A stretch of DNA of 64,000 bases. Source: Rhizobium sp. BK251 (GTDB lineage: Bacteria; Pseudomonadota; Alphaproteobacteria; Rhizobiales; Rhizobiaceae). The DNA lies in assembly GCF_004345245.1 (NCBI RefSeq), contig NZ_SLUQ01000014.1, positions 1 to 64,000 of the forward strand, read 5' to 3'. Position 1 is the stretch's first letter; every line of letters begins with the position of its first letter. The notes below the pieces were generated by a model. The model was not told where the DNA came from and made no database searches. It saw only the letters and a list, made by a program, of their open reading frames with translations. The position numbers and the translations under genes are program-made. Positions 42,439-44,515 of the stretch are shown piece after piece.

Positions 42439-42491
42439 TGTGTCTGCTCACTCTTGACCACAGATGTGCTGGCAGGGTGACGACAACAGAA

Positions 42492-42520
42492 AAAAGGCCG
42501 GTCTGACCGGCCTTTTGCTT
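42492..42520 (+). terminator. Rho-independent terminator after cspA copy 2
   Basis: Stem AAAAGGCCGGT / ACCGGCCTTTT with a CTG loop, followed by GCTTTT. The A-run before and T-run after allow it to act in both directions, so it may also end transcription of the minus-strand gene at 42601-42861. Confidence 0.9.
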
Positions 42521-42600
42521 TTCTAGGCCAAGCAGAGTGAGCCGCGCCGGGCTCGGTTGTTCCTTTGCTCACGGCAAGAAGCTTTGCGCCGGGTGTATCC

Positions 42601-42861
42601 TCATATGCGCCGCTGTGGCGGCGAAGCCCGTGCTGACGACATCCTCCGTGGCGGCCGGCCAAGACGCTTGCGTAGCTCGCTCGCGAGTTCGTCCGCCGAG
42701 GTCATTCCACCTTGGAACAAGTGGATCAGGAGAAATGCAGCTGCATTGAATGTGCGAGGCTGCTCAAGAAGGAGGTCGGCATTGTAGCCGGCACCACTGA
42801 GAACGCCCTGAATCATGTTCAGATCATCGCTTGTAACAGCCGCGCGGAGCGTGGAAGACAT
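42601..42861 (-). CDS. Small protein with structured leader (copy A)
   Basis: 86-aa protein beginning MSSTLRAAVTSDDLNMIQGV, with AGYNADLL and AAFLLIHLFQGGM, then a basic C-terminus (RKRLGRPPRRM). The pattern (S/D)xxMIxxxLxxAGY is shared with the 61-aa protein encoded divergently at 43227, and the 50-nt leaders of the two genes are alike. The ATG at 42861 has an excellent ribosome site (AAAGGAGGGCGTT). Function unknown. Confidence 0.7.
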   Translation of the reverse strand: MSSTLRAAVTSDDLNMIQGVLSGAGYNADLLLEQPRTFNAAAFLLIHLFQGGMTSADELASELRKRLGRPPRRMSSARASPPQRRI

Positions 42862-42911
42862 AACGCCCTCCTTTCGGTCGAGGTTAGGGTGGCAACCCTC
42901 AACCAGCAGCG
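42862..42911 (-). promoter_or_regulatory. Conserved hairpin leader of the 86-aa gene
   Basis: The 50 nt upstream of the start match the leader of the divergent 61-aa gene at 42 of 50 positions without gaps. Both contain GGTTGAGGGT and ACCCTAACC separated by 3-4 nt, which can form a stem just before the ribosome site GAAAGGAGG. A translational switch or RNA thermometer is possible. Confidence 0.6.
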
Positions 42912-43176
42912 ACTGAGAACAGCTGCTGATCCAGTCACCATGCGCCTGCCCGGCATGGAAAGCAACGCGACCGGCAAAAGCCGAGGCAAAATCGCACTGG
43001 CCTGCCGAGCTGCCGATGACCCCCAACGGCGCCTCACCGACCACATCCACCGTCAAGAGATAGTAAATTGTGCTGAGGAAAAGCTCGCGACGAAACGCCG
43101 CCAATTGACCTTGATTGATTAATTGCCAAAGAGGGCTGCGAAGCGCATTCTGACTGCCTCAGAAGCCAAGTCCGGG

Positions 43177-43226
43177 CGCTGCTGGTTGAGGGTCCCCACC
43201 CTAACCTTGACTGAAAGGAGGACCGG
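43177..43226 (+). promoter_or_regulatory. Conserved hairpin leader of the 61-aa gene
   Basis: Second copy of the 50-nt leader: CGCTGCTGGTTGAGGGT, a short loop, then CACCCTAACC and GAAAGGAGG, ending at the ATG of 43227. The mismatches with the other copy fall mainly in the loop and in the last five bases. The stem is kept. Confidence 0.6.
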
Positions 43227-43412
43227 ATGTCTTCCAATGCCAATCAGGTGGATTTTCGCTCATCCGATACGCAAATGCTGCGCGAAATCCTGAAGAAGGC
43301 CGGCTACGTCACATCCAGGATGGAGCCGCTTGCGGGTCCGCGATGCGAAGCATCACAATCCCTGCTGCTGCGGTTCAAGACAGGGATACTGTCCGAGCTG
43401 CGCGAGCGATAG
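43227..43412 (+). CDS. Small protein with structured leader (copy B)
   Basis: 61-aa protein: DTQMLREILKKAGYVTSRME, then a hydrophobic LLLRFKTGILSELRER end. It is a diverged paralogue of the 86-aa protein at 42601 with the second half shortened. The start has a GAAAGGAGGACCGG ribosome site. Predicted cytoplasmic and helical; function unknown. Confidence 0.65.
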   Translation: MSSNANQVDFRSSDTQMLREILKKAGYVTSRMEPLAGPRCEASQSLLLRFKTGILSELRER

Positions 43413-43790: not shown

Positions 43791-43885
43791 CCTGATTCCC
43801 CTGACGATAAAAATAAAAAAGGCCGGGGCAAAAGCGCACCGACCTTCCTCATAATCGCTTACCTACCAATGCCAGTACATCCGTG
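43791..43885 (-). promoter_or_regulatory. Leader with terminator-like hairpin (81-aa gene)
   Basis: On the minus strand: a 5' part ACGGATGTACTGGCAT, the block AGCGATT, then the stem GGTCGG / CCGGCC followed by T6-A-T5, ending 18 nt before the start codon. A transcript of the gene must pass this hairpin, so it could be an attenuator, or the terminator of an upstream small RNA. A tiny frame MYWHW lies at its 5' end. Confidence 0.5.
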
Positions 43886-44063
43886 GTCAAGGTCATAAGC
43901 CATTACAACATTGCGAGCGACAGATACTTTCCAGCGCTCACCAGCAATGCCGCTGAAGTGAGATATAGTGAGCCATTGTGGTTAAAACAAGTCGCCGGCT
44001 TTGCCGCGCCGCTCGCCGTTAGGAGTTTTTATCTTGAGACGCGAGCAATCGCGTGGCTGCGGC

Positions 44064-44234
44064 TTATTTTCCTCGGACAGGCCGACGTGTCTTCTCGCCC
44101 TTGCCCTTGGAGGATGATGTCTTGGCATCGAGCGACTGGCCGAAATTGGTTCCACCGAGGTGACCGCCGCCGCTGGTGTTGGCCACCTGGCGCCGGGCTC
44201 TCGATAGCAGGATGTCGGCATCCGTCTTCTTCAT
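44064..44234 (-). CDS. Small basic Gly/Ser/Lys-rich protein
   Basis: 56-aa protein read directly from the minus strand: MKKTDADILLSRARRQVANT, then SGGGHLGGTNFGQSLDAKTS and a Lys/Arg-rich tail ending RRPVRGK and TAA. The other two frames over the same DNA (44029-44316 and 43982-44221) are arginine/proline-rich shadows. The ribosome site GGAGAAGCGTT precedes the ATG at 44234. Size, charge and flexible composition suggest nucleic-acid or ribosome binding, but no family is recognised. Confidence 0.65.
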   Translation of the reverse strand: MKKTDADILLSRARRQVANTSGGGHLGGTNFGQSLDAKTSSSKGKGEKTRRPVRGK

Positions 44235-44317
44235 AACGCTTCTCCGTCTTCAAACAAAAGAGGCCGGGGTTGACCCGACCTTCTTCAATCGCTGTCCCGA
44301 GTGCCAATACGTCCATG
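44235..44317 (-). promoter_or_regulatory. Leader with terminator-like hairpin (56-aa gene)
   Basis: Minus strand: ATGGACGTATTGGCACT, block AGCGATTGAAGAAGG, then a 7-bp stem GGTCGGG / CCCGGCC (44262-44280) with a five-base loop, followed by TCTTTTGTTTG. Order and sequence blocks match the leader at 43791-43885, so the two genes probably share a mode of control. Confidence 0.5.
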
Positions 44318-44515
44318 GATAAATAGGTTCACAGATCTCATCTTCTAGAGCTCCGCACGTCTTCAGTAGCGTCCTTGCCTCTGCGCCTATCGTGTCGGAT
44401 GTCGAAGCCAACCGCAGCCAAGCTCCGCGCCGCTAAGCAACTCTTTGCGAAACTTTACTGGCATCGGAGGCCGGTGCGGATCACGCTTGACTCGACGGAT
44501 CAACCGGAGGCCGAA

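Follow-up and report, generated by a model that had tools for sequence, protein, structure and literature searches.

The window, that is, the whole analysed stretch of 64,000 nucleotides from Rhizobium sp. BK251, carries two divergently oriented small genes, each of which is preceded by a promoter-like sequence and a structured leader that extends into the first codons:

42601-42861, minus strand: small gene 1, 86 aa (MSSTLRAAV...), soluble family with a DLxM...AGY motif, from the translation
42850-42931, minus strand: structured leader of gene 1 including the first codons, covariance-model match of 69.5 bits
42922-42928 (3' arm at 42904-42910), minus strand: P1 of the gene 1 leader, 5' arm CAGCAGC, from alignment and covariation
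42882-42901, minus strand: P2 hairpin of the gene 1 leader, TGAGGGT...ACCCTAACC
42853-42871, minus strand: ribosome-site/start-codon hairpin of gene 1, GGAGGGC...GTCTTCC
42937-42965, minus strand: promoter-like sequence of gene 1, TTGCTT, 17-nt spacer, CATGGT
43106-43118, plus strand: operator-like box TGACCTTGATTGA, upstream of the gene 2 promoter
43123-43151, plus strand: promoter-like sequence of gene 2, TTGCCA, 17-nt spacer, CATTCT
43157-43238, plus strand: structured leader of gene 2 including the first codons, covariance-model match of 73 bits
43160-43166 (3' arm at 43178-43184), plus strand: P1 of the gene 2 leader, 5' arm CAGAAGC, with one mismatch
43187-43206, plus strand: P2 hairpin of the gene 2 leader, TGAGGGT...ACCCTAACC
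43217-43235, plus strand: ribosome-site/start-codon hairpin of gene 2, GGAGGAC...GTCTTCC
43227-43412, plus strand: small gene 2, 61 aa (MSSNANQVDF...), short sub-family

Gene 1 is matched by a paralogue in its own genome (P0003, E 4.5e-13, protein search), while relatives of gene 2 were found in 30 plasmid records, 26 of them from Agrobacterium. As the sequence-only reading of this DNA had stated, the 50 nt upstream of the two start codons (43227, plus strand; 42861, minus strand) agree at 42 of 50 positions in an ungapped comparison, and every other 50-mer of the window stays below 30 of 50 matches with the plus copy. The stem and the ribosome site that it had placed in the shared leader are both present in the window copies, and the strong divergence described for the proteins is borne out by only 22 identities in a global alignment of the 61-aa and 86-aa products. 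The likeness of the leaders exceeds the original 50 nt, reaching upstream to P1 and the promoter and downstream into codons 2 and 3. Single leader fragments ending at the start codon have an unremarkable folding energy (z -0.4 to -0.6), so the case for the leader rests on the comparison of related sequences. A third leader of the same genome was found by DNA search at G000:C7:398052, upstream of the paralogue P0003, which is 96 aa long; this protein is matched in 90 of 148 genus genomes, its own included, and the leader precedes the gene in all 30 loci taken from there (L004-L033).

Three hairpins and a putative pseudoknot

Alignment A3 consists of 32 leaders, taken from 34 non-redundant ones of which two were set aside, one because the leader is lost and one for its degenerate P1. 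RNAalifold, unprompted, folded A3 into three hairpins, namely P1, P2 and a hairpin of ribosome site and start codon; the structure was set by hand to seven pairs in P1 and six in P2, with a GGGC/GCCC pseudoknot added. In A3, 94.4% of the cells pair and two-sided changes occur in 8 of the 24 pairs. The covariation amounts to 0.154 against 0.105, and none of 500 shuffles reached the observed value by any of five measures.

A covariance model (R1) was built on these 32 copies and then run on new genomes. The 87 matches from loci outside the genus (83 distinct; alignment A5) show two-sided changes in all seven P1 pairs and in 5 of 5 P2 pairs. Covariation in A5, an alignment fitted to the R1 model, which favours the observed covariation, is 0.265, compared with 0.157 in shuffles, and none of 500 shuffles reached the observed value; sliding the pairing partners by 1-3 columns as a control gave scores of at most 0.114. 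The covariation result of the genus set (A4, 81 matches) agrees with that of A5, its scores again being reached by none of 500 shuffles. The covariation search proposed in the earlier reading has thus yielded further copies with compensatory changes in the stems, and such changes, by which a structured cis-regulatory leader can be judged, are present in A3, A4 and A5 alike. Comparative analysis shows that the 5' part of the leader folds as P1 and P2.

The GGGC/GCCC pseudoknot pairs in 96-97% of cells, but its letters hardly vary and give almost no covariation, with two-sided changes in one cell each of A3 and A4 and none in A5. The single two-sided change of A3 is the minus copy of the window. 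In one viral-contig copy the letters are replaced, as seen by eye, by GGGU/ACCC, and in two more copies of the same group GGGC is kept opposite AACC, which breaks the pseudoknot. Judged from its conservation, with few compensatory changes, the pseudoknot probably forms. The window copies are atypical in this respect: GGGC is kept in the plus copy only, GCCC is altered in both, and the pair GGTT/AACC would be able to lengthen P2.

Predicted ribosome-site pairing, promoter and proposed control

In the third hairpin, the ribosome site GGAGGAC pairs with GUCUUCC of the start codon and codons 2 and 3. Across A3, A4 and A5, 98-100% of its cells pair with few changes, and covariation therefore tells little about this almost invariant hairpin. 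Among 264 distinct leader-plus-gene sequences, which stem from related and hence not independent genes, TCT stands at codon 2 in 257 and TCC at codon 3 likewise in 257; further downstream in the same genes, TCT accounts for 210 of 1784 serine codons. Because the collecting pattern demanded TCN at codons 2 and 3, AGC and AGT were uncountable among the 264. The A4 and A5 model matches, collected free of the TCN condition (n = 168), have TCT in 154 and TCC in 161, the R1 model itself favouring these letters. The Met-Ser-Ser start looks to be set at the nucleotide level, and it seems to be the RNA, not protein function, that determines how unrelated proteins begin. The covarying stems, the near-invariant serine codons 2 and 3 and the unrelated downstream proteins (see below) uphold the earlier suggestion that selection acts on the RNA leader.

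The mean probability that the ribosome site is unpaired was predicted to be 0.034-0.037, compared with 0.15-0.17 with shuffled flanks, for the first 60 of 166 non-redundant leaders at 10-42 C and with the pseudoknot outside the model; shuffled leaders likewise hide the ribosome site in large part in this prediction. A temperature or translation-linked switch had been proposed from the sequence. Its translation-linked half is retained as the most likely role, since the predictions have the ribosome site base-paired; its temperature half has no direct support, as the predicted pairing hardly changes between 10 and 42 C. This flat accessibility, again with the pseudoknot outside the model, together with the lack of any Rfam match on a leader, makes an RNA thermometer rather improbable, in which the third hairpin would melt or refold with temperature and so control translation directly, even though the ribosome site is paired with the start region, a G-U pair is retained and cold-shock genes lie nearby. 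Heat melting of the ribosome-site hairpin was likewise rejected as a candidate, no temperature effect being predicted.

ROSE and fourU RNA thermometers govern access to the ribosome site, as is proposed for the rhizobial leader. The putative thermosensor in the Agrobacterium cspA 5' UTR, as outlined in part of PMC3738593, shares with the rhizobial leader the idea of ribosome-site control and a cold-shock connection. Unlike all of these, the rhizobial leader has a predicted accessibility that is independent of temperature, lacks an Rfam match, carries an extra and probably pseudoknotted 5' domain, and does not stand before cspA in the window. Compact pseudoknot riboswitches of the SAM-II type are small pseudoknotted 5' leaders near the ribosome site, which the rhizobial leader, with its probable pseudoknot, resembles. 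In comparison with SAM-II of alpha-proteobacteria, as covered in part of PMC1273637, no metabolic genes were seen downstream of the rhizobial leader, which has no known ligand and no Rfam match.

The promoter was derived from 110 upstream regions (119 collected minus near-duplicates). Counted from the leader start, the -35 side has T-34 in 83, T-33 in 98, G-32 in 77 and C-31 in 66 of the 110, and the -10 side has G-14 in 80, C-11 in 71, A-10 in 79 and T-6 in 75, which can be read as hexamers TTGCnn and CAnnnT separated by 17 nt, at a fixed distance from the leader and present in both window genes. Given this fixed spacing, the transcript would begin with the first leader bases, and we infer that the leader, which lies directly before the start codons, is transcribed from this promoter as a 5' UTR. 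A TGACCTTAATTGA-like box (at most two mismatches) was found upstream in 18 of the 264 leader genes, the window plus gene among them. Judging by its number, SMa0022 might correspond to the leader gene at about 12.5 kb on pSymA. The 5' UTR region of SMa0022 was increased upon rpoE2 overexpression, with no matching rise of the coding region, according to part of PMC3616915.

A 5'-terminal stability element would display most of the features cited here for translational control: P1 near the mRNA end, together with P2 and the pseudoknot, would block 5'-end-dependent decay, and the third hairpin would be secondary in these short mRNAs. The promoter position, which sets the mRNA start at P1, the covariation of P1 and P2 and the occurrence of one leader on otherwise unrelated short mRNAs are all consistent with it. 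However, it leaves the near-invariant codons 2 and 3 and the conserved stretch from P2 to the start codon unexplained, and we consider it unlikely, if more plausible than a thermometer.

Our preferred reading, to which we assign a probability of roughly 55% on the strength of sequence comparison and predicted pairing, is that the leader acts in cis to control the translation of a set of small-protein genes in Rhizobiaceae and is closed by default. The mRNA would begin at the first nucleotides of the leader, the 5' part would fold as P1 and P2, probably with the GGGC/GCCC pseudoknot, and the third hairpin would pair the strong ribosome site with codons 2 and 3 around the start codon. In this default state ribosome loading would be blocked, as the predicted pairing suggests. 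The third hairpin might be opened by a trans factor common to these genes, such as an RNA-binding or cold-shock protein, or else by a ligand that the P1/P2/pseudoknot domain reads, and the small proteins would thereby be switched on together. Translational control is favoured over transcriptional control because the aligned leaders have, by eye, no terminator-like U run.

Downstream proteins and range of the leader

With the first three residues removed, the 264 leader-gene proteins fall into 21 clusters by single linkage, the largest of which holds 206 proteins, including the window plus protein, and may chain unrelated groups; 14 clusters are single-member, some of which the collecting pattern may have picked up by chance. 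The window minus gene is missing from the 264 because its loop lacks the GGGC required by the pattern; its tie to the family is the match to P0003. Thirty short peptides with a single hydrophobic stretch, many with a GWLW end, form one group, which appears membrane-like by eye. A BON domain (PF04972, E 1.6e-9, one member scanned) was detected in a two-member group, the leaders of which both match the model (E 4.4e-16 and 1.1e-15). Pfam gave no match for the other six of the seven further leader genes scanned or for 33 main-family members (A6), and neither Pfam nor NCBIfam matched three own-genome proteins including gene 1. When the main family was compared by sequence with solved structures, only two weak matches were obtained (best E 0.02). 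AlphaFold predicts for it a low-confidence three-helix bundle (mean pLDDT 67.7, pTM 0.45), with which Foldseek retrieved four PDB matches at E <=10 and none at 0.001. As far as these comparisons reach, the same leader is found in front of unrelated proteins, namely a soluble family, membrane-like peptides and a BON-domain protein, and the genes that share this RNA element form a candidate regulon, most of whose small proteins are uncharacterised.

At one locus (L175, 1465, minus strand), an 11-aa ORF follows the leader, and 114 nt further along lies a DUF982-like gene (by eye); DUF982 genes are annotated near other leaders too. In three genera, the leader precedes a similar 24-aa ORF (L170 at 1149, plus strand; L188 at 12175, minus strand; L178 at 1455, minus strand), which is possibly a micro-protein or a leader peptide.

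The covariance model gave five leader matches in the own genome at E <1e-4. The leader was detected in 112 of 148 genus genomes (E <=0.01), in 68 of 297 genomes and 32 of 109 genera of the family sample (E <=0.001), and in 9 of 297 genomes of the order sample (E <=0.001), comprising the own genome, three of the genus, three of the family and two outside the family. A pattern scan gave at least 120 stretches; the names among the 80 listed include Rhizobium, Sinorhizobium, Agrobacterium, Neorhizobium, Pararhizobium, Pseudorhizobium, Ciceribacter, Mesorhizobium, Brucella and Falsochrobactrum, as well as one bin assigned to Bacteroidia in which no leader surrounds the pattern match. Two copies are present on pSymA of S. 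meliloti 2011, one on pAt of A. fabrum C58 and four on p42f of R. etli CFN42, so the controlling signal is directly testable in model strains.

Rfam 15, run on the window and 20 loci, reached its gathering threshold with ar35 and tRNA only and with no leader, and it gave no match on any leader in five loci at E up to 1; a search of the open-licence literature found no paper on this leader. Within the genomes compared, the leader is a conserved, uncatalogued element in root-nodule bacteria and their relatives. Orphan cis-regulatory RNA motifs, such as those of Weinberg et al. 2010 (in part of PMC2864571), are likewise conserved, covarying 5' leaders with no known function; the rhizobial leader differs in having no Rfam 15 match, in reaching into codons 2 and 3 and in fronting small proteins that mostly lack a Pfam match.

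Many leader copies sit in clusters, and the three own-genome paralogues compared are related, as would be expected if the leaders were alike merely through recent gene duplication and had no shared function. The compensatory changes in the stems, the spread over the genera sampled and the unrelated downstream proteins make this explanation extremely improbable.

Tandem leaders 100-160 nt apart were seen at two loci (L160, L161) with undetermined bases nearby and may be an assembly artefact. The pattern was also present in 18 stretches of IMG/VR viral contigs (L365-L382), which may be either provirus or host flank; all 18 match the model at E <=0.1, and one match runs off the locus end.

Cold-shock genes and ar35

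In 20 of 118 leader loci (924,364 bases), 21 pattern matches to csp genes were counted, and the own genome (6.69 Mb) has 11 CSD matches, two of which lie in one frame. At this density about 1.5 csp genes would be expected in the leader loci, which puts the observed number about 14 times higher, for loci that are related and not independent and with two counts made by different methods. The cold-shock neighbourhood pointed out earlier stands as a statistic, which in itself reveals no mechanism. It is a tentative thought, clearly less probable than control by a default-closed element, that promoter, pseudoknotted receptor and start-codon hairpin make up one mobile cassette; this would be a new class of Rhizobiaceae regulatory RNA, through which a single signal acting on translation, possibly cold or general stress, would govern otherwise unrelated small stress proteins, with RNA structure dictating Met-Ser-Ser.

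The sRNA ar35 (Rfam RF02346, 114.8 bits) is encoded at 43812-43954 on the minus strand and adjoins leader genes in several other genus genomes as well; its core was found in 35 of 121 sources searched, window included. SmelB053, which appears to belong to the ar35 family, has relatives tied to the 3' UTRs of cold-shock genes in 29 of 33 cases, as reported in part of PMC3927594. SmelB053 and ar35-like RNAs are, like the leader, rhizobial, tied to cold shock and found in the same neighbourhoods, but they are 3' UTRs or free sRNAs with a terminator and differ from the leader in sequence.

The near-invariant sequence around the start codon and the ar35 genes beside some leader copies would suit a leader targeted by a small RNA that acts in trans and either opens the ribosome site or blocks it. 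A target site, however, has no need of stem covariation, and the complementarity of ar35 and the cspA 3' UTR to 146 leaders does not exceed chance: shuffles were at least as good in 34, 26 and 36 of 40 cases for three ar35 stretches and in 20 of 40 for the cspA 3' UTR. Both were rejected as leader partners, and we rank a small-RNA target between the stability element and the thermometer in likelihood. The cspA 3' UTR of the window (42439-42521, plus strand) contains an ar35-like core followed by a terminator-like hairpin, and a weaker second ar35-like stretch lies at 44250-44320 on the minus strand, upstream of a 56-aa ORF (44064-44234).
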